Shown piece by piece: positions 35,607-61,430 of a stretch of DNA of 64,000 nucleotides. The DNA comes from Luteimonas wenzhouensis (lineage in GTDB: Bacteria; Pseudomonadota; Gammaproteobacteria; Xanthomonadales; Xanthomonadaceae). Each line of letters opens with the position of its first letter. Positions within the stretch are counted from its first letter, which is position 1. The stretch is taken from contig NZ_VOHE01000003.1 of assembly GCF_007859305.1 (NCBI RefSeq), positions 434,001-498,000 of the forward strand, written 5' to 3'. Below the pieces are notes generated by a model. It saw only the letters and a list, made by a program, of their open reading frames with translations, did not search any database and was not told where the DNA came from. The translations under genes were made by a program, and so were the position numbers.

Positions 35607-35624
35607 CTGTCACGCAGCTGAAAC
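35607..35624 (+). promoter_or_regulatory. Pho-box-like direct repeat before the TonB receptor
   Basis: CTGTCAC-GCAG-CTGAAAC is two seven-base direct repeats spaced 11 bp, close to the PhoB box (CTGTCAT-AAAT-CTGTCAC) apart from one base in the second repeat and the GC-rich spacer. It ends 50 bases before the receptor start at 35675. Confidence 0.5.
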
Positions 35625-35674
35625 CGGGCGGACATAGCGTGCGCATCGTTTCCCGCTTCCCCGGTCCCGCCGCC

Positions 35675-38233
35675 ATGTCGCGCCGCCACCCGCTCCACCT
35701 CGCCATCGCCCTCGTGCTGGCATCCTGCGCCTCCGCCGGCTTCGCCCGGGACGCGGCTCCCCCGATGCCCGGCCCGTCCCCCGTCGACCTCGACACGATG
35801 GTGGTGCGCGCGCAGTACGAGTCCCAGCTCCGGGCGGTGGATGCCAAGCGTTCGAGCGACGCGATCCAGGACGGCGTGTCGGCCGACTCGATGGGCCAGT
35901 ACCCGGACCAGAACGTCGGCGAATCCCTCTCGCGCCTGCCGGGCATCAGCGTCACCCGCGACCAGGGCGAGGGCCGCTACGTCGTCATCCGCGGCCTGGA
36001 CGCGGCCCTGAATTCGGTCACCGTCGACGGCATCGGCATGGGCACGCCGGAGGACGGCAGCCGGGCCGCGCCGCTGGACGTGATCCCCTCCGAATCCACC
36101 GAGCGCCTCACCGTGGTCAAGGCAGCCACCCCGGACATGCCGGGGGATTCGCTGGGCGGAACGATCATGGTCGAGTCGGCATCGGCCTTCGACCGCGACG
36201 GCCGCAGCATGCGGCTCAAGGCCGAGGCCAGCCACCAGAACCTCAGCGGGGAGACCAGCCCCAAGGCGGCGTTCAACTTCAGCGACGTCTATGGCGGGAC
36301 CGTCGGCGTCGTCTTCGGCGTCAGCTGGCAGGACCGCGACTACGAATCGGACAACGTCGAGATCGAATACGACGATCAGTTCGAGGACGTCGCCGGCGGC
36401 CGCCTGCTGCCGCTGGAGATGCAGCAGCGCAAGTACACCATCAACCGCGAGCGCACCGGGCTGAACCTCAACCTGGACTGGCGCCCGGACAGCGACAGCC
36501 AGTACTACCTGCGCACGCTGTTCACGGACTTCACCGACGCCGAGACCCGCCAGCGCAACATCATCCCGCTGGGCGAGGGCGACATCGCCGGCTACGACGG
36601 CCACAGCTGGCAGGTGGAGAACATCGCGGCCGACGACTTCAGCCGCCGCCTGCGCTACCGCACCAAGGAAGAGCACACCTTCACCGCCAGCGCCGGCGGC
36701 ATGAACCGCGTCGGCCGCGCGCGGTTCGACTACCAGCTGGGCTACACCAGGGTGCGCGAGCGCGTGGACGACGAAGTCGAGATGCGCTTCGAGTACCTGG
36801 GCGGGGAGGACATGGCGATCCGCCTCGGCCCGGGCGCGATCCCGTCCTTCGACGTGATCGACCCCGCCGGCGACGACGGCTGGCTGCGCAACGCCGGTTA
36901 TGGCCTCGACCGCCTGGTCGTGGCGCCCAAGCAGGTGGACGACGAGGCGCTGAGCGCGAAGTTCGACTTCACCTGGACCGGCGAGGCGGCGACCTGGAAG
37001 GCCGGCCTGCTCGGGCGCTGGCGCGACCGCGATGTGAACGTGGACGAGGCCGAGTTCCGCCGCGGGCCGGAGATCGACCCGTCCGACTGGACCGCGGCGG
37101 CGCCGTCGTTCCGTCACGGCCTCTTCGGTGAGGGCCTGTCCTCGTCCGCCATGCGCGACTGGCTGCGCGGCAACCGCGACGCCTTCAGCGCGCGCCCCCA
37201 GGACGTGGCCGAAAACACCATGATCTCCCTGGTCGAGGACTACACCGCGGCCGAGGACGTGCTCGCCAGCTACCTGATGGCAACGGTGGACGTGGGCCAG
37301 CTGCGCGTGATCGCAGGTGCGCGGGTGGAGCGGACGCAGTTCGAGGCCAACGGCTGGCGCGTGGACCTGGACGAGGACGGCGTGCTCGCCACGACCCGGT
37401 CGTCGGCCTCGAGTTCCTACACCAGCGTCCTGCCGGGCCTGCACCTGCGCTACGACACCGACGGCGACTGGGTGCTGCGCGGCGCGGTCACCAAGACCAT
37501 CGCGCGTCCCAGCTTCGGCGACATCTCGCCGCGGGTGAGCATCAACCGCGACGACGAGGAAGTGGAGCTGGGCAATCCGCAGCTCGATCCCTACGAGTCG
37601 ATCAACGTCGACCTCTCGTTCGAGCGCTACATCGGCGAGTCGGGCATCTTCTCCGCCGGCGTCTTCCACAAGTCGATCGACGGCTACATCGTCGAGACCT
37701 GGACTGACAGCGACGCCCAGTTCCCTGGTTACGAAGTCACCCGCCCCATCAACGGCGAGGACGCGAAGGTGTTCGGCGTCGAGCTGAACTGGCAGCAGAA
37801 GCTCGACTTCCTTCCGGGGTTCTGGGGCGGCCTGCTGGTCAGCCTGAGCGGCACCTGGCTCGATACCGAGTTCGTCGCCGGAACCGAGGACCGCGCCGGT
37901 GAGACCTTCGTGCTGCCGCTCTCGTCCGAGCGCCTGTACAGTGCGCACCTGGGATGGGAGAACGACCGCCTCAGCGCGCGTCTGGCCGCCGTCTACCGCA
38001 GCGAATACCTGGACGAGATCGGCGACGACAGCCGCTACGACCTCTGGGTCGCGCCCAACACCCAGCTCGATTTCAGCTTGGACTACAGCATGGGCGAGCG
38101 CTGGAGCCTGTACTTCGAGGCCTCCAACCTGCTCGACGAACCGCTGGAGCTCTACCAGGGTTCGCCGGCCACCACGCTGCAGAACGAACTGTACGGCCGC
38201 AGCTACGCGGTCGGCCTGAAGCTGCGTTTCTGA
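35675..38233 (+). CDS. TonB-dependent receptor upstream of the propeller phytase
   Basis: An 852-residue outer-membrane receptor. The signal peptide is LHLAIALVLASCASAGFA, the TonB-box-like region VDLDTMVVRAQ, and the plug contains YPDQNVGESLSRLPGISVTRDQGEGRYVVIRGL, the hallmark of the carbohydrate-type Xanthomonas/Caulobacter receptor class. It ends in GLKLRF with terminal Phe. ATG 35675 begins just before the signal peptide, though the ribosome site is weak. A phytase-type gene follows, and such receptors are often linked to beta-propeller phytases, so phytate or its breakdown products are the likely ligands. Its plug resembles that of the receptor at 61508. Confidence 0.9.
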   Translation: MSRRHPLHLAIALVLASCASAGFARDAAPPMPGPSPVDLDTMVVRAQYESQLRAVDAKRSSDAIQDGVSADSMGQYPDQNVGESLSRLPGISVTRDQGEGRYVVIRGLDAALNSVTVDGIGMGTPEDGSRAAPLDVIPSESTERLTVVKAATPDMPGDSLGGTIMVESASAFDRDGRSMRLKAEASHQNLSGETSPKAAFNFSDVYGGTVGVVFGVSWQDRDYESDNVEIEYDDQFEDVAGGRLLPLEMQQRKYTINRERTGLNLNLDWRPDSDSQYYLRTLFTDFTDAETRQRNIIPLGEGDIAGYDGHSWQVENIAADDFSRRLRYRTKEEHTFTASAGGMNRVGRARFDYQLGYTRVRERVDDEVEMRFEYLGGEDMAIRLGPGAIPSFDVIDPAGDDGWLRNAGYGLDRLVVAPKQVDDEALSAKFDFTWTGEAATWKAGLLGRWRDRDVNVDEAEFRRGPEIDPSDWTAAAPSFRHGLFGEGLSSSAMRDWLRGNRDAFSARPQDVAENTMISLVEDYTAAEDVLASYLMATVDVGQLRVIAGARVERTQFEANGWRVDLDEDGVLATTRSSASSSYTSVLPGLHLRYDTDGDWVLRGAVTKTIARPSFGDISPRVSINRDDEEVELGNPQLDPYESINVDLSFERYIGESGIFSAGVFHKSIDGYIVETWTDSDAQFPGYEVTRPINGEDAKVFGVELNWQQKLDFLPGFWGGLLVSLSGTWLDTEFVAGTEDRAGETFVLPLSSERLYSAHLGWENDRLSARLAAVYRSEYLDEIGDDSRYDLWVAPNTQLDFSLDYSMGERWSLYFEASNLLDEPLELYQGSPATTLQNELYGRSYAVGLKLRF

Positions 38234-38258
38234 CCCGCGCCGCGCACGCCCGCTGACG

Positions 38259-38276
38259 CTGTCAGCGGGCTGTCAG
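38259..38276 (+). promoter_or_regulatory. Pho-box-like direct repeat before the propeller phytase
   Basis: CTGTCAG-CGGG-CTGTCAG is an exact seven-base direct repeat with 11-bp period, as in PhoB boxes. It lies 26 bases after the receptor stop and 64 bases before the phytase ATG. The bases GCTGAC-GCT-GTCAGC at 38252-38266 can also pair as a short hairpin, so part of the site could act as a receptor terminator. Confidence 0.55.
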
Positions 38277-38340
38277 AGCGGTTTGGCTAAGGTCCCGTCC
38301 ATGCCGGCGCCATGCCGGACGCATCCACGGGAGAAACATC

Positions 38341-39480
38341 ATGGGTTCCAGATTCGCAGGTTCGTTCGCGTGTCCGCTGTCGCTGCTTGCGCTTGCGCTG
38401 GCCGCCTGCACGGGGGCGCAGGACACGGCCGGCGCGGCTTCGCCGGACGCGCAGGCGGACGCCGCGCCGACCGCGCAGGCGCGCGACGTCCCGGTCATCG
38501 CCGAAGCGTTCCAGAGCGCGATGACGCCGGACGACAACATCGATTCAGTCGCCTCGTGGACCGCGCCCGACGGCGCGGTCTGGGTGATCGCCACGGCCAA
38601 GTCGACCGACCGACTGGTGGTGTACGACGGACACACCGGGCAGACGCTGCGCACCGTCGGCAGCCTCGGCACGGGCGAGGGCGAGTTCGACCGGCCCAAC
38701 GGCGTGGCGGTCGCCGACGACCTGGCGTTCGTGGTCGAGCGCGACAACCACCGCGTGCAGGTGCTGCGGCTGCCGGAGTTCGAGCACGTGGCGAGCTTCG
38801 CCGCCGACGACCTGGTCAAGCCCTACGGCCTGTGGGTGACCCCGGTCGGCGAGGGCTACGAGCTCTACGTGACCGACGCCTACATGGCCGGCGAGGACGC
38901 CGACGGCGAGGACATCCTGCCGCCGCTGGCCGAGCTCGACCGGCGCGTGAAGCGCTATTCGCTCACGCCCGACGGCGCGGGCTACCGGGCGCAGCTGGTG
39001 TCGAGCTTCGGCGACACGAGCGAGCTCGGCGCGCTGCGCGTGGTCGAGTCGATCTGGGGCGATCCGGCGCACGGCCGGCTGCTGATCGCCGAGGAGGACG
39101 AGACCTATGCCAACGAGCTCAAGGTCTACGACCTGGACGGCCGCTTCGCCGGGCGCACCATCGGCGGCGACGTGTTCCATGCGCAGTCGGAGGGCATCAT
39201 GCTCAAGGAGTGCGGCGACGGCGCGGGCTGGTGGATCACCACCGAGCAGGGCAAGGGCCGCACCGTGTTCCACCTGTTCGACCGCGCCACGCTCGACCAT
39301 GCCGGCGCGGTGACCGGACAGATGGTGGCCAATACCGACGGCATCTGGCTGCACCAGGCGGCGACTTCGAAGTTCCCGCAGGGCGCGCTGTACGCGGTGC
39401 ACGACGACCAGGGCCTGGTCGCGTTCGACTGGCGCGACATTGCCGGTGCGCTGTCTCTGCCCGCCTGCGCGGTGGACTGA
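38341..39480 (+). CDS. Beta-propeller phytase-family lipoprotein
   Basis: A 379-residue lipoprotein (LALALAAC, lipid Cys at 23). The body reads as a propeller: DDNIDSVASW near residue 62 for the calcium and phosphate site, then WVIATAKSTDRLVVYDGHTG, RLLIAEEDETYANELKVYDLDGRF, HAQSEGIML and NTDGIWL blocks that follow the order of beta-propeller phytases (DDPAIW, IGTDK, AEGL, TDGI). The first block is diverged, so activity is likely but not certain; an NHL-type propeller is the alternative. Phytases of this family remove phosphate from calcium-phytate at the cell surface. GGGAGA precedes the ATG; the next gene starts 1 bp after the stop. Confidence 0.78.
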   Translation: MGSRFAGSFACPLSLLALALAACTGAQDTAGAASPDAQADAAPTAQARDVPVIAEAFQSAMTPDDNIDSVASWTAPDGAVWVIATAKSTDRLVVYDGHTGQTLRTVGSLGTGEGEFDRPNGVAVADDLAFVVERDNHRVQVLRLPEFEHVASFAADDLVKPYGLWVTPVGEGYELYVTDAYMAGEDADGEDILPPLAELDRRVKRYSLTPDGAGYRAQLVSSFGDTSELGALRVVESIWGDPAHGRLLIAEEDETYANELKVYDLDGRFAGRTIGGDVFHAQSEGIMLKECGDGAGWWITTEQGKGRTVFHLFDRATLDHAGAVTGQMVANTDGIWLHQAATSKFPQGALYAVHDDQGLVAFDWRDIAGALSLPACAVD

Positions 39481-39481
39481 G

Positions 39482-40870
39482 ATGGCGAGCCGGATTCCGC
39501 TGGTTCTCGCTGCCGCGCTGCTGCTCTCGCCGTGGCCTGCGGCGCTGGCCGAGGCGCCGCAGGCGGCGCGCCAGGTCGAGCCCAACACCCTGGTCCCCGA
39601 GGGCGTGGTGCGCTACGCGCCGACGGGTTTTCCCGACCGCATCGTCGCCACGCCGCTGCAGGATGCGGCGACCGGGTTCTCGGTCAGCTGGCGCACCGGC
39701 GTGGCGGTCGAGTCGCCGGTGCTGGAGATCGCGGTGGCGAAGGAGTCGCCCGACCAGTGGGACGGCGACGTGCCGCCGCGGCGGGTGGTCGCCGCGACGC
39801 GCGCGCTTGCCGCGGGCAACGGCAGCGCGCACCACCACCGCGCTGTGGTCGACGGCCTGCAGCCGGGCACGCTGTACGCGTGGCGGGTGCAGGGCGATCG
39901 CACCTGGAGCCCGTGGCGGCAGCTGCGCACCGCCGCGCCGGCCGGGACGCCGCTGGAGTTCCTCTACATCGGCGACACCCAGAACAAGAACGCCAGCCTG
40001 GTGACGCGGGTGATGCACGAGGCCGTGCGCCATGCGCCGCGGGCGAACCTGGCGCTGTTCGCCGGCGATCTGGTCAGCGAGGCGGTGGACGACGACGAGT
40101 GGGGCGAGTGGTTCGACGCCACCGGCCCGCTGGCGACGATGGCGTTCGCGCCCGCGCCGGGCAACCATGAGTTCTTCGAGGAATTCGAGGACACCCCGCA
40201 GGAGCGGCGCGTGCTCGGCGAGCAGTGGAAGCATCACTTCGCGTTTCCCGGCAACGGTGCGACTGGCGTGAAGGACACGACCTACTGGTTCGACTACCAG
40301 GGCATCCGCTTCGCGGTGATCGACGGCACGTCCGCGCTCGATCTCGACGCCGGGCCGGCGCAGACGCGCTGGCTGGACGAAGTGCTGTCGGGCAACCCGC
40401 ACCGCTGGAGCATCGTGCTGATCCATCAGCCGTTCTACTCGCCGCGCGCCAATCGCGAGAACCGGGAACTGCGCGAGACCCTGCTGCCGGTGATCGAGCG
40501 ACACAGGGTCGATCTGGTGCTGCAAGGCCACGACCACGTCTACGGCCGCCGCGGCGGGGAACGGGGCGCGCCACCGGTCTACACCGTGTCCGTGGCCGGA
40601 CCCAAGCAATACCGCCTGTCCGACGACGCCCGCCACACCATGTCGCCCGTGGGAGAGGATACGCAGCTGTTCCAGGTGCTGCGGCTGGACGGCGACCGCC
40701 TGAGCTACGAGGCGCGCACGGCGACCGGCAGGCTGTACGATGCCTTCGCGCTGATCGACGGGGGCGATGGCGGCAAGCGCCTGGAGGAGCGGGATCAAGA
40801 CCGCATCGGGGAGCGCATGTGCAGCCGTCCGCACGCACCGGGCGGGCGTGCCGATCGCTGCTGGGAGTGA
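39482..40870 (+). CDS. Exported purple-acid-phosphatase-like metallophosphoesterase
   Basis: A 462-residue exported phosphatase with signal peptide LVLAAALLLSPWPAALA. A fibronectin-III-like domain (GFSVSWRTG to LYAWRVQ) is followed by a calcineurin-type catalytic domain with all metal motifs: GDTQ, FAGDLV, GNHEFF, LIHQPFY and QGHDHVYGRR. This is the layout of purple acid phosphatases, several of which hydrolyse phytate or phosphomonoesters. It is one base after the phytase-type gene and three bases before the pyrophosphatase, so the three appear co-transcribed. Confidence 0.88.
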   Translation: MASRIPLVLAAALLLSPWPAALAEAPQAARQVEPNTLVPEGVVRYAPTGFPDRIVATPLQDAATGFSVSWRTGVAVESPVLEIAVAKESPDQWDGDVPPRRVVAATRALAAGNGSAHHHRAVVDGLQPGTLYAWRVQGDRTWSPWRQLRTAAPAGTPLEFLYIGDTQNKNASLVTRVMHEAVRHAPRANLALFAGDLVSEAVDDDEWGEWFDATGPLATMAFAPAPGNHEFFEEFEDTPQERRVLGEQWKHHFAFPGNGATGVKDTTYWFDYQGIRFAVIDGTSALDLDAGPAQTRWLDEVLSGNPHRWSIVLIHQPFYSPRANRENRELRETLLPVIERHRVDLVLQGHDHVYGRRGGERGAPPVYTVSVAGPKQYRLSDDARHTMSPVGEDTQLFQVLRLDGDRLSYEARTATGRLYDAFALIDGGDGGKRLEERDQDRIGERMCSRPHAPGGRADRCWE

Positions 40871-40873
40871 GGA

Positions 40874-41491
40874 ATGAAGAGGATTGCCGGACATTCTGCG
40901 CTGTTGCTGCTGTTGGCCTGCTTCGCGCAGGCCGCCGTCGCCGCCGAATCCATCCGGCATCCCTTCCGCGCGAGCCAGCCGCCGGCCGCGCCGGACGAGG
41001 TGCTGCTGGCGGTAGAGATCCCCGCCGGCAGCTTCACCAAGTACGAGATCGACGAGCAGGACGGACTGGTCTACGTCGATCGCTTCCAGTCGATGCCGGT
41101 GGCGTATCCGGCCAACTACGGTTCGATGCCGCGCACCCTGGCCGGCGACAACGATCCGCTGGACGCGCTGGTGCTCACGCGCGCGCCGCTGCATCCGGGC
41201 GTGCTGGTCCGCTTCCGCCCGATCGGCGTGCTGCGCATGACCGACGACGGCGAGGCCGACGAGAAGATCATCGGCGTGCCCACCGACAAGGTGGATCCGG
41301 CCTACGCCGGCATCCGCGACATCGGCGACCTGCCGGAGATCGAGCGGCAGCGCATCGAGGCCTTCTTCCGCGTCTACAAGGACCTGCCGGCGGGACGCAA
41401 CCCGGTGGCGCTGGATGGTTTCGGCGACGCCGCGGAGGCGAAGACGGTGATCCGCGAGGCGCTGCGACGCTACGAGGCGCGGGAGCGCTGA
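40874..41491 (+). CDS. ppa: Inorganic pyrophosphatase (family I) with a signal peptide
   Basis: A 205-residue family I soluble pyrophosphatase. The metal-binding core GDNDPLDALVLTRAPL, the EIPAGSFTKYEID strand and YVDRF-type block are conserved. Unusually it starts with a clear secretion signal, MKRIAGHSALLLLLACFAQAAVAAES, so the enzyme should act in the periplasm instead of the cytoplasm. That suits an operon of extracytoplasmic phosphate-releasing enzymes. A GGGAGTGAGGA ribosome site precedes the ATG. Confidence 0.92.
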   Translation: MKRIAGHSALLLLLACFAQAAVAAESIRHPFRASQPPAAPDEVLLAVEIPAGSFTKYEIDEQDGLVYVDRFQSMPVAYPANYGSMPRTLAGDNDPLDALVLTRAPLHPGVLVRFRPIGVLRMTDDGEADEKIIGVPTDKVDPAYAGIRDIGDLPEIERQRIEAFFRVYKDLPAGRNPVALDGFGDAAEAKTVIREALRRYEARER

Positions 41492-41537: not shown

Positions 41538-42881
41538 TCAGCCCGGCTCCCACTCGAAGCGCACCAGCGCGCCGCCGAGGGCGGACGTGCCCAGCGTCAT
41601 CCGGCCGCCGGTGGCCTCGGCAAGCTCGCGAGCGATCGACAGGCCCAGGCCCGTTCGCGGACCGGATTCGTCGAGGCGCCTTTCGCTCTCCGCGATGTCG
41701 CCGCTCCTCTCAGCGGCGAAGCCGGGGCCGTCGTCTTCCACGCCGAGCACCGTCCACTGCGGTCCGGCCGCGCCGGAAACGCGCACCTGCCGGCGCGCGT
41801 GCCGGGCGGCGTTTTCCAGCACTGCGCCGAGGATCTCGGACAGGTCTTCTGGCTGCAGCGCCAGACGCAGGCCGGCGGGAACGTCCACGGTGAACGCAAG
41901 CTGCCCGCCCTTGTCGGTATGTTCGATCACGTTGACCAGCCGTTCGACCACCGTGCGTACGTCCGCATTGCCGCCGCGCGCGCTGCGTATGGTCGCGGCG
42001 CGCGCGTGCGCGAGCTCGGCGTCGATGGTGCGACGGATCGCGGCGATCGCGCGATCGAGCCCTTCCGCCGCCTGTTCGGCGCCGAGCTCCCGGGCGTGGC
42101 GACTCTGCGCGGCGATTGCCGACAGCGGCGTTTTCAGCCCGTGGGCGAGGTTCGCGGCGCGCCGTCGCGCGAGCGCCAGGTCGCGCTCGCGTGCGTCGGC
42201 AAGCGCGTTGATCGCGTCGGTCAGCGGCTGTACCTCGCGCAGCGAGGCGTCCGGCAGGCGCGCCCGCGCGCTCTCGCGCAGGGTATTCAGGTCGCCGCGG
42301 ATGCGGCGCAGCGGATGCAGCCCGAGCCTGACCTGCAGCCACGCCGCCGCCGAGAGCACCAGCCACAGCGCGAGCAGGAACAGCGCCAGTTCGCGCCCGA
42401 ACTCCGTGCGCGCGTCGGTCAGCGGCGCGCGGTCCTGCGCCAGCTGCACCAGCACCCTCGGCCCGCCCGCATCCGGGACGACCGCGCGTTCGAGGATGGA
42501 AACCCGTCCGCCGTAGGGGCCGTCGGCGTGGCGCAGCACCCAGTCGCGGGTCGGCGCCGCACGCGGCGCGGCGAGGTCGGCGTCCCACAGCGAGCGCGAG
42601 CGCACCGCGCCGGCCGGTCCGGACACCTGCCAGTAGTAGCCGCCGGCGGGCGTCTGCAGCCGGGGATCCATGGGCGTCGGGTCGATCACCGGCGCACCGT
42701 CGGGGGCCAGCGACAGCGCCGCGACCAGGCGCAGGCCGTCGCGGGTCAGTTCGGCTTCGAGCCTGCGCTCGAGATGGCGTTCGAACAGCAGGGTCATGAA
42801 CAGCCAGGCCACGCCCAGCGCCAGCAGGATCGCCGTCGCCGCGCCGGCCAGGAGGCGCCAGTGCAGCGAGCGCGCGATCAC
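41538..42881 (-). CDS. Sensor histidine kinase
   Basis: A 447-residue inner-membrane kinase. Two transmembrane helices (about residues 10-32 and 164-184) bracket a periplasmic sensor of roughly 130 residues. A HAMP-like linker and HisKA domain follow, with His247 in NLAHGLKTPLSA, then an ATPase domain with N box ENAARHA, DDGPGF and TGLGLSIARELAE. The layout is that of PhoQ/QseC-type kinases. The start overlaps the regulator stop (ATGA), forming a PepSY-regulator-kinase operon. The signal is unknown. Confidence 0.92.
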   Translation of the reverse strand: MIARSLHWRLLAGAATAILLALGVAWLFMTLLFERHLERRLEAELTRDGLRLVAALSLAPDGAPVIDPTPMDPRLQTPAGGYYWQVSGPAGAVRSRSLWDADLAAPRAAPTRDWVLRHADGPYGGRVSILERAVVPDAGGPRVLVQLAQDRAPLTDARTEFGRELALFLLALWLVLSAAAWLQVRLGLHPLRRIRGDLNTLRESARARLPDASLREVQPLTDAINALADARERDLALARRRAANLAHGLKTPLSAIAAQSRHARELGAEQAAEGLDRAIAAIRRTIDAELAHARAATIRSARGGNADVRTVVERLVNVIEHTDKGGQLAFTVDVPAGLRLALQPEDLSEILGAVLENAARHARRQVRVSGAAGPQWTVLGVEDDGPGFAAERSGDIAESERRLDESGPRTGLGLSIARELAEATGGRMTLGTSALGGALVRFEWEPG

Positions 42882-43540
42882 GCGGGTTCGCCCGGCAGGT
42901 AGCCGAAGCCGCGCCGGGTCAGGATGACGTCGGCGCCGTACTTGCGCCGCAGCCTGGCGATGATCGCCTCGATGGCGTTGGTGTCCCCCGAGTCGGCGAC
43001 GCCGTACAGGTGCTCGGCCAGCTCGCCGGCGGAGACGGCACGGCCCGACGCATGCGCGAGGTGGTCGAGCAGCCGGTATTCGAGCGGCGACAGCCGGGCC
43101 GGCGCGCCGTCGAAGGTCGCGCTCATGCGTGCGGTGTCGAGCCGCAGCCTGCCCAGCGCGACGATGCTGTTCGTGTGTCCCGCGCCGCGGCGCACCAGCC
43201 CGCGCACGCGGGCGACCAGCTCGCCCATCTGGAAGGGCTTTCCCATGTAGTCGTCGGCGCCCGCCTCGATGCCTTCGACCTTCTCGGTCCAGTCGCCGCG
43301 CGCGGACAGCACGATGACCGGAAAGGCGCGTCCGGCCGAACGCCAGCGGCGCAAGACCGACAGCCCGTCAAGCCGGGGCAGGCCGAGATCGAGGACGGCG
43401 GCGTCGTAATCCTCCGTGTCGCCCAGGAACCAGGCGGTTTCGCCGTCGCCGGCGACGTCGACGGCAAAACCGGAGGCTCCCAGGGCACGCCGCAGGTCGG
43501 CCTGGATGTCGGAATCGTCCTCGACGACGAGGCAGCGCAT
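42878..43540 (-). CDS. OmpR/PhoP-type response regulator
   Basis: A 220-residue regulator. The receiver domain has acidic VVEDDSD, phospho-acceptor Asp51 in AAVLDLGLPRLDG and Lys in GKPFQMGEL. The C-terminal winged helix (LSPLEYRLLDHLA to VILTRRGFGYLPG) is of the PmrA/QseB/PhoP group, proteins that bind paired direct repeats about 11 bp apart. It is tightly joined to the kinase gene and overlaps the PepSY gene by one base. Repeats of this kind occur in its own promoter. Confidence 0.93.
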   Translation of the reverse strand: MRCLVVEDDSDIQADLRRALGASGFAVDVAGDGETAWFLGDTEDYDAAVLDLGLPRLDGLSVLRRWRSAGRAFPVIVLSARGDWTEKVEGIEAGADDYMGKPFQMGELVARVRGLVRRGAGHTNSIVALGRLRLDTARMSATFDGAPARLSPLEYRLLDHLAHASGRAVSAGELAEHLYGVADSGDTNAIEAIIARLRRKYGADVILTRRGFGYLPGEPA

Positions 43541-60152: not shown

Positions 60153-61430
60153 TCAGCTGTCGGCGGCGGCCAGCTTCGATTCCACCAGCGCCTCGAAGTC
60201 CGGGAGCCGGCACGGTGCGTCGCAGCCCGGGATCGACAGGTATTCGAAGTAGGGTGCGTTGTCGTCGCCCAGCGGCTGCAGTTCGCGCACCTGGTCCATC
60301 GTCTGCGCGCGGTAGAAGGCGCGCACGCTGCGCCCGCCGTCGTCGTCGGCGAACAGCGCGAAGCCGAGCGCGCCGCCCGGCGGCGGATCGTCGCGCGGGT
60401 AGCCCGGCACCTGCCAGTGCAGGTCGAGCAGGCCGCCGAGGTCGGCGATGTTGGTGTCGTGCCCGACGAGCACGGTCACGCGCGCGCCGTCGAGGAGCGA
60501 GGCCACCATCCGCTTCGCCAGCGGCGCGGCCGCATGCGCGGCGACGTATGGCGCGCGGCCCTCGTACAGGAACTTGATGCGGTGGAATTCGAGCAGTTCG
60601 CCGATCTCGTCGCGGGACAGTCGACCCCAGGCGACCTGGTCCATCGGGAAGCCCTCCAGGTACTCGAGCAGGAAGGTCTGGCTGACCGTGGACGCGGTGC
60701 CCAGCAGTTCGCCCACCTTGGGGCGTCCCGCATCGCTGCTCTTGAACTGCTCGGGCAGCGCGTCGAGGCCGCAGCCGGAGGCGGCAGCCGCCGTTTTGCA
60801 GAATGTCGCCGAGCAGCAGCCCAGCGCGCGCTCGAGCAGCGCGAATCGGGCCGCGTTCTCCGCCACCAGCGCCTGCTCGCCGCCTTCGGGCAGCATGGCG
60901 CGCGCCTCGGCCATGGCGCGTGCCGGATCCATGCGCGTCGCACCGGCATCGAGCGGGTGGAACTCGACGTCGTCGGCGGCGCTGGCCGGGAAGGCGATCG
61001 GGACCTCGCATCCCGGGAACATGCCTTCCAGCAGCGCGCGCGCGGTGTCCTGGGTGCGCGGCTTCGCGCTGGCGGCGAGCGCCAGGTCGCCCTGCCAGGG
61101 ACAGCCGGCTTCGGGCAGCAGGCCTTCCTCGACCCAATGGCCGCGGTCCCAGGCGCCGAGCAGCGCCACGGCCTTGTATCCGTGTGGCGTCAGTTCGCCG
61201 AAATCCACCGGCCATTCAGGCCAGGGCCGGTCGTGCGTGCCTTCCGGCGAGACGGTCGCCTTGGTCGGCGGGCGCACGCCGTGGCGCATCAGCATGACCA
61301 CGCGCTCGATGCGCGGCGGCGCCGCGCCGGTCGATGCGTCCTCGTCCGCCGAGGACGCGCTGCAGCCCGCCAGCGACAGCGCGGGGCCGAGGATCAGGGT
61401 CGCCAGCAAGGCGATACGAAAAGGGGACAT
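60153..61430 (-). CDS. Histidine-acid phosphatase / phytase lipoprotein
   Basis: A 425-residue exported enzyme of the histidine acid phosphatase family (AppA/Agp branch). The lipoprotein-type signal is ALLATLILGPALSLAGC (Cys23). The phosphoenzyme motif RHGVRPPTK has catalytic His50, and the proton donor pair His324-Asp325 is in LVGHDTNIADLGG, as in E. coli AppA. Further features are WPVDFGELTPHG and ASAKPRTQDTARA. Phytase action is inferred from these motifs and the linked inositol genes; glucose-1-phosphatase is an alternative. It lies downstream of the TonB receptor at 61508 on the same strand. Confidence 0.87.
   Translation of the reverse strand: MSPFRIALLATLILGPALSLAGCSASSADEDASTGAAPPRIERVVMLMRHGVRPPTKATVSPEGTHDRPWPEWPVDFGELTPHGYKAVALLGAWDRGHWVEEGLLPEAGCPWQGDLALAASAKPRTQDTARALLEGMFPGCEVPIAFPASAADDVEFHPLDAGATRMDPARAMAEARAMLPEGGEQALVAENAARFALLERALGCCSATFCKTAAAASGCGLDALPEQFKSSDAGRPKVGELLGTASTVSQTFLLEYLEGFPMDQVAWGRLSRDEIGELLEFHRIKFLYEGRAPYVAAHAAAPLAKRMVASLLDGARVTVLVGHDTNIADLGGLLDLHWQVPGYPRDDPPPGGALGFALFADDDGGRSVRAFYRAQTMDQVRELQPLGDDNAPYFEYLSIPGCDAPCRLPDFEALVESKLAAADS

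Follow-up and report, generated by a model that had tools for sequence, protein, structure and literature searches.

Soluble family I inorganic pyrophosphatases are textbook housekeeping enzymes of the cytoplasm, a location that is usual for them in bacteria without being a defining property. Why, then, should one be encoded with an apparent export signal, immediately behind genes for two other exported proteins? The question is raised by a stretch of 64,000 nucleotides (nt) from Luteimonas wenzhouensis (contig NZ_VOHE01000003.1, positions 434,001 to 498,000), hereafter the window, in which three consecutive forward-strand genes, numbered 1 to 3 below, encode a lipoprotein, a metallophosphatase and the pyrophosphatase. 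A sequence-only reading of this DNA had described the three genes as a phosphate-release operon with gaps of 1 and 3 base pairs (bp) and with export signals on all three products. The coordinates of the open reading frames bear out the arrangement and its spacing, and export signals were recognized in each protein, namely, a lipobox in that of gene 1 and type I signal peptides in those of genes 2 and 3. We consider it likely, judging from sequence comparisons, that the locus is an operon for periplasmic phosphate harvest during phosphate starvation, in which the exported enzyme would split pyrophosphate. The operon part of the sequence-only reading thus stands, and its extent has to be revised: the unit comprises at least four genes, including an upstream gene for a TonB-dependent receptor, and is accompanied by PhoB-type boxes.

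Membership of gene 3 in family I, as had been proposed, follows from its match to the Pyrophosphatase profile PF00719 (E 4.5e-51; 173.1 bits against a cut-off of 23.5), which covers residues 46-201 of the protein and positions 2-153 of the 153 in the profile; alignment to the Escherichia coli pyrophosphatase 1faj scores 137 bits. The top match, from Luteimonas marina, is 81% identical. A contig search returned 240 relatives of gene 3, and the results reported here rest on the best 80 of these. Alignments were built from subsets below 88% identity, comprising the window protein together with 33 of the 80 relatives for gene 3, 30 of 66 for gene 1 and 27 of 66 for gene 2 (L041 was left out of the gene 2 and gene 3 alignments). 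Of 14 catalytic positions, mapped through the 1faj alignment (E. coli numbering), 12 are invariant in the 34 rows and two are conserved in at least 90%. Because these positions are kept, the gene 3 enzyme should be active.

The cytoplasmic location usual for the family is not what gene 3 presents, as read from its predicted signal peptide. The window protein and 79 of the 80 relatives pass a signal-peptide test that demands a hydrophobic core, a basic N-terminus and a small-x-small site, so that the survey of orthologues suggested earlier favours export; the single relative that fails, L067, looks signal peptide-like by eye. All 49 candidates of the cytosolic type, a label assigned by default, were subjected to the same test with any start codon allowed, and 1 of 32 and 0 of 17 passed (1 of 49 overall), the exception being L104, from an upstream start. 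It should be noted that the test is a crude, in-house one and that the starts of the relatives were picked by a simple rule, which tempers its verdict. A competing explanation holds that the N-terminus goes unused and that translation from a downstream start yields a second cytoplasmic pyrophosphatase. A candidate start exists, namely, a GTG at codon 43, just ahead of the enzyme domain (3 residues before the Pfam match) and the only start codon between this domain and the signal part. The signal parts of the relatives, which as whole proteins are 64-78% identical to that of the window, have diverged, as is usual for signal peptides, and yet the signal peptide itself is kept in 79 of 80, which makes downstream initiation unlikely. 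Moreover, the neighbours of gene 3 encode exported enzymes, and a second pyrophosphatase match is present in all 25 genomes of the family that carry the exported type; we regard an unused N-terminus as highly improbable. Attachment as a lipoprotein was rejected: Cys16 (LLAC) gives gene 3 a slightly lipobox-like sequence, yet this residue is not conserved in the relatives, and a strict lipobox is matched by none of the 79 relatives that have a hydrophobic core, nor by the window protein itself. Export of the gene 3 pyrophosphatase is therefore strongly supported by these comparisons.

The cell's ordinary pyrophosphatase, encoded elsewhere in the same genome, is ~45% identical to gene 3, and the two types separate cleanly in phylogeny. 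In a maximum-likelihood tree of 83 rows, a branch with 100/100 support parts 35 exported rows from 48 cytosolic-type rows. The exported rows comprise 28 of the 80 relatives, the window protein and six further sequences (five from survey genomes and one from a Klebsiella record), and the cytosolic-type rows 48 of the 49 candidates; other exported rows from the genome surveys and L178, which has an internal stop, were not included. The tree was built on the mature part only, with an unknown root and with L160 on a long branch. On the exported side are Pseudomonas, another family represented by a single genome, and a group in which the Klebsiella pneumoniae record is joined by four genomes from one family, hence probably Enterobacteriaceae; all six of the outer rows pass the signal test. 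Thus, the signal survey and the separate tree group support an exported pyrophosphatase distinct from the ordinary one, and, on this phylogeny, it is a dedicated exported line rather than a mis-targeted copy of the housekeeping enzyme.

Among 149 genomes of the family, the exported type was found in 25 (at least 249 bits, with no further score above 169 bits); within the genus, it is present in three of the six genomes sampled. Of 369 genomes sampled from the class, only four reach the 249-bit level, all of them members of the same family, and among 398 genomes of the phylum seven of this family score at least 241 bits and five others 196-217 bits. Gene 2 is present in 32 of the 149 family genomes and co-occurs with the exported enzyme in 21. 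In every one of these, the two genes lie within 1.4 kb of each other, and in 18 the distance is no more than 150 bp (Fisher p 6e-14, a value overstated by the relatedness of genomes and rows, the counts of which are not independent). Relatives of gene 1 at E 1e-60 are still more common (117 of 149 genomes, several with two). Given that four of the 25 genomes with the exported enzyme have no gene 2 and that 11 of the 149 have gene 2 and no exported enzyme, the pyrophosphatase is, as far as gene content tells, an accessory part of a set in which gene 1 is general and gene 2 rarer. Genes 1 and 2 also adjoin without an exported pyrophosphatase in G384, G430, G483, G505 and other genomes, and this genome holds a second gene 1 paralogue (G000:C12:629418-630485; 50% identical).

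The tight linkage to gene 2 (21 of 25 genomes) accords with another view of gene 3, in which the enzyme would do no environmental scavenging and would only clear pyrophosphate made in the periplasm by the phosphatases of the operon or by other nucleotide-splitting enzymes, pulling their reactions forward. The nearest folds of gene 2, the plant purple acid phosphatases and phytases, also fit this view, which we nevertheless hold to be unlikely, for reasons that come with the Pseudomonas loci below. Gene 2 matches the Pfam families Metallophos (PF00149) and Pur_ac_phosph_N, and its predicted type I signal peptide passes the crude test in the window and in 63 of 66 relatives. Foldseek searches with its structural model (predicted local distance difference test, pLDDT, 73.7) place a wheat purple acid phytase first, followed by the purple acid phosphatases of lupin and kidney bean. 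The metal-binding motifs GD, GD, GNHE, H and GHDH are invariant in 28 rows, whereas the tyrosine of GDxxY is replaced in all of these (GDLVS in 28 of 28), so that no iron-tyrosine bond and no purple colour are expected. The label 'purple-acid-phosphatase-like' is hence apt for the fold but not for the residue behind the name.

The description of gene 1 as phytase-type requires a similar qualification. PF02333 (Phytase) matches its residues 236-349 only, with 24.8 bits against a cut-off of 21, and falls below that cut-off in a whole-genome search (19.3 bits); NHL matches were found as well. The AlphaFold model (mean pLDDT 89) superimposes on the phytase 1poo with Z 34.6 and a root-mean-square deviation of 2.6 over 292 aligned residues; NHL domains come next (nearest Z 32.3), and Foldseek also puts a phytase first, by a small margin. 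A profile of gene 1 aligns with the genome's own true phytase over 275 columns (E 2.7e-5, probability 74). The modelled structure is that of a six-bladed propeller of the phytase type. In the MAFFT alignment, counterparts of the TEG, EED, DIEG and TDG acids of the phytase active site are present together with PYG; the phytase motif DDPAIW reads DSVASW in the window and D-S-P-A-S/A-W in five other aligned rows, with serine at the second aspartate. The lipobox ends at Cys23, invariant in 31 rows; of 66 relatives, 47 conform to the lipobox pattern in its strict form. Fold and ancestry are thus those named by the sequence-only reading, and gene 1 is best regarded as a diverged relative of the beta-propeller phytases, its phytase activity uncertain; the clear beta-propeller phytase of this genome is encoded ~25 kb downstream, just outside the window.

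These similarities bring up the idea that the locus is a phytate or inositol-polyphosphate operon, with the pyrophosphatase acting on inositol pyrophosphates or their products. The closest fold of gene 1 (Z 34.6) and the wheat phytase at the head of the gene 2 matches are in line with it. The genome, however, encodes a clear two-domain phytase, a receptor and a histidine-type phosphatase elsewhere, gene 1 carries the serine noted above within DDPAIW, and there is no sign in this locus of a pyrophosphorylated inositol as substrate. Family I pyrophosphatases are known for their specificity to inorganic pyrophosphate, and nothing found here points to the action on inositol pyrophosphates that had been raised as a possibility. 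We judge this function improbable.

The extent of the proposed phosphate-harvest unit was assessed from the 74 loci outside Pseudomonas (the best 80 minus six Pseudomonas loci), in which gene 1 was found in 68, gene 2 in 66 and a receptor of the window type, in the same direction, in 52. Genes 1, 2 and 3 occur together in 62 of the 74 loci and all four genes in 50, on the same strand and within the fetched stretch. Receptor and gene 1 are 107 bp apart in the window; in many relatives, they abut or overlap, and overlaps of 1 or 4 bp, common among the receptor gene, gene 1 and gene 2, suggest that their translation is coupled. The features are listed in Table 1.

Table 1 Features of the proposed unit and of a second phosphate-release locus (window positions unless another locus is named)
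Feature	Position	Strand	Remarks
PhoB-type box with -10-like block, TGTCAC-N5-TGAAAC-N5-GGACATA	35608..35636	+	11-bp repeat period; before the receptor gene
TonB-dependent receptor, first gene of the unit	35675..38233	+	852 residues; TIGR01782, 657.9 bits
Hairpin with 10-bp stem, gap between receptor gene and gene 1	38248..38270	+	may be an attenuator, or a terminator lacking a T run
PhoB-type box CTGTCAGCGGGCTGTCAG	38259..38276	+	pair of 7-bp repeats with a period of 11 bp; 64 bp upstream of gene 1
Gene 1, lipoprotein, predicted six-bladed propeller, diverged beta-propeller-phytase relative	38341..39480	+	379 residues
Gene 2, predicted exported metallophosphatase of purple-acid-phosphatase fold, GDLVS for GDxxY	39482..40870	+	462 residues from ATG
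Gene 3, predicted exported family I inorganic pyrophosphatase	40874..41491	+	205 residues; signal peptide ~residues 1-23/24
Histidine-phosphatase gene, lipoprotein-like start	60153-61430	-	second locus
TonB-dependent receptor	61508 to beyond window end	-	second locus
Two-domain true beta-propeller phytase, divergent	L086 5301-7370	+	just outside the window

The unit is probably induced by phosphate starvation through PhoB, since PhoB-type boxes precede both the receptor gene and gene 1. In PhoB boxes, a 7-bp sequence is repeated once at a period of 11 bp. The pattern CTGTCA-N5-CTGTCA occurs exactly once, before gene 1, in the window and indeed in the 3.44-Mb genome. Among relatives in which gene 1 comes first, 12 of 15 upstream regions contain a box scoring at least 10 of 12, compared with 29 of 3200 stretches drawn at random from these loci (L067, which begins 34 bp before the gene, was skipped). 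Permuted hexamers and other spacings served as controls, the reversed pattern being uninformative since it shares CTGTC: CTGTCA yields more boxed regions than any other of the 180 hexamers that share its composition, the runner-up (11) being a shifted form of it, and any period from 6 to 21 other than 11 yields at most five regions, as against 12 of 15. Upstream of the pstS genes of this genome, too, there are such boxes, with scores of 9 or 10 of 12. The block before the receptor gene, whose second half is TGMAA, is the only match in the window even at two mismatches, with none in 100 shuffles. Its generalized form, TGTCAY-N5-TGMAAS-N5-SGAMATA, is found 54-166 nt before the assigned start in 44 of the 52 relatives with a same-direction receptor, a partly circular count, because the pattern was drawn by eye from the very upstream regions in which its matches were then counted. 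Less affected by this circularity are its position (67 nt from the start in 25 of the 44 relatives, as in the window) and its single occurrence, no further copy having been found in the 148 loci searched.

Several further points weigh against the proposed regulation. Before the receptor gene, a plain CTGTCA score of at least 9 is only weakly raised (13 of 51 regions compared with 277 of 3200 random stretches), and the stricter TGTCA pair occurs in just one of 51 (control, 2 of 3060). Of the 15 best boxes before gene 1, seven have their score from the minus strand, and no box precedes gene 1 in the 52 loci where the receptor comes first (best scores 6-8), the latter being what a promoter upstream of the receptor gene would lead one to expect. 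In the window, the gene 1 box overlaps a strong hairpin, which might be the source of part of the repeat; the fold of 38234-38340 has a z of -2.70, and equally good folds arise in 3 of 200 shuffles.

An independent hint that the exported enzyme serves pyrophosphate from outside the cell comes from a different genomic setting. In all six Pseudomonas loci, a Porin_O_P-type gene (PF07396, OprO/OprP-type; identified by tblastn, with Pfam on three) lies on the opposite strand within ~2.5 kb downstream of the exported enzyme. As described in one study, OprO of P. aeruginosa is a pyrophosphate-specific porin, and phosphate limitation raises OprP 82-fold and OprO 87-fold (PMC9769906). The same six loci have a box-like block, CTGCAATATATCTCTAAC (with T as the first base in L076), 73-80 nt before the enzyme, which is PhoB-like at 10-11 of 14; the choice of this block was made by eye, however, from only six loci that are closely related, and equally high scores occur in 50 of 1200 random stretches. 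Genes 1 and 2 were not found in these loci, nor are they listed in the neighbourhood of the Klebsiella enzyme. Both this and the porin, which suggests an outside origin of the pyrophosphate, argue against a role confined to clearing pyrophosphate made in the periplasm. The annotated neighbours of the Klebsiella enzyme are not phosphate-related, a further point against the harvest reading. The Klebsiella pneumoniae record itself (L179, CP125156.1; 5.37 Mb) is filed as a plasmid and yet is of chromosome size, and encodes an exported-type pyrophosphatase with a signal-like start.

The periplasmic harvest of phosphate could then proceed as follows. PhoB, active when phosphate is scarce, would bind the boxes before the receptor gene and gene 1, and the TonB-dependent receptor would carry a phosphorus-containing compound across the outer membrane. 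To judge from their folds and conserved residues, the gene 1 lipoprotein and the gene 2 enzyme might strip phosphate off organic phosphates. The gene 3 pyrophosphatase, the secretion of which through its signal peptide is strongly supported by comparison, would split pyrophosphate, either scavenged or freed by its neighbours, into two phosphates in the periplasm, and these would be taken up through the Pst transporter.

Other features of the surroundings do not appear to belong to the unit. A histidine kinase and a response regulator gene on the minus strand (41538-43540), convergent with the operon, adjoin it in four Luteimonas-like loci; as candidate members they were rejected, since relatives occur in only four of the 80 loci (L006, L007, L021 and L067). 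A mobile origin was also rejected: a phage collection gave no match, and the plasmid matches (132 records) are all below 60% identity. One contig labelled Bacillus subtilis (L070, JAHREJ010000009.1) holds a Stenotrophomonas-type operon and probably represents contamination or a wrong label. Finally, a further phosphate-release locus lies 19-25 kb downstream of the operon, at the window end (Table 1).

The open-licence literature that we consulted yielded no account of an exported or periplasmic family I pyrophosphatase in bacteria; one source applies the term 'secreted inorganic pyrophosphatase' to a mite allergen (PMC6064784), and another reads a ppa gene of Crocosphaera as a sign of pyrophosphate use (PMC12260270). 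More broadly, and with slightly less than even confidence, we propose that Gammaproteobacteria possess a dedicated periplasmic pathway in which an exported line of family I pyrophosphatase accompanies OprO/OprP-type porins in Pseudomonas and, in Xanthomonadaceae, two phosphatases and a receptor under PhoB control, so that pyrophosphate could serve as a source of phosphorus with no need for a pyrophosphate carrier in the inner membrane. If true, a separate exported line, which spans four gammaproteobacterial families and is encoded next to genes of phosphate starvation, would account for the use of environmental pyrophosphate as well as what a pyrophosphate porin feeds, and proteins annotated as 'inorganic diphosphatase' would not always be cytoplasmic.

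The proposed unit shares features with several known systems and departs from each of them. Gene 3 shares the fold family (PF00719) and the catalytic residues of the E. coli Ppa type, from which it differs by its signal peptide and by conserved residues where the mature part begins (HPF, QP), and the exported line is set apart from the ordinary family I pyrophosphatases as a separate group (100/100). Gene 2 has the N-terminal and metallophosphatase domains and the metal motifs of the plant purple acid phosphatases (1kbp, 6gja), but not the tyrosine of GDxxY. The OprO/OprP porins of Pseudomonas (PF07396), which serve phosphate or pyrophosphate uptake and rise at low phosphate (PMC9769906), have a relative near the exported enzyme; they are absent from the operon of the window, where the TonB-dependent receptor holds the place in the outer membrane. 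The closest parallel to the arrangement of receptor and gene 1 is in Flavobacterium, for which a phytase has been described that is induced by low phosphate and encoded next to a TonB-dependent transporter (Fjoh_1367/Fjoh_1368 of Flavobacterium johnsoniae; PMC8115612). Compared with that pair as described there, the set in the window has the diverged gene 1 in place of the phytase, together with an enzyme of the purple-acid-phosphatase type and the predicted exported pyrophosphatase.

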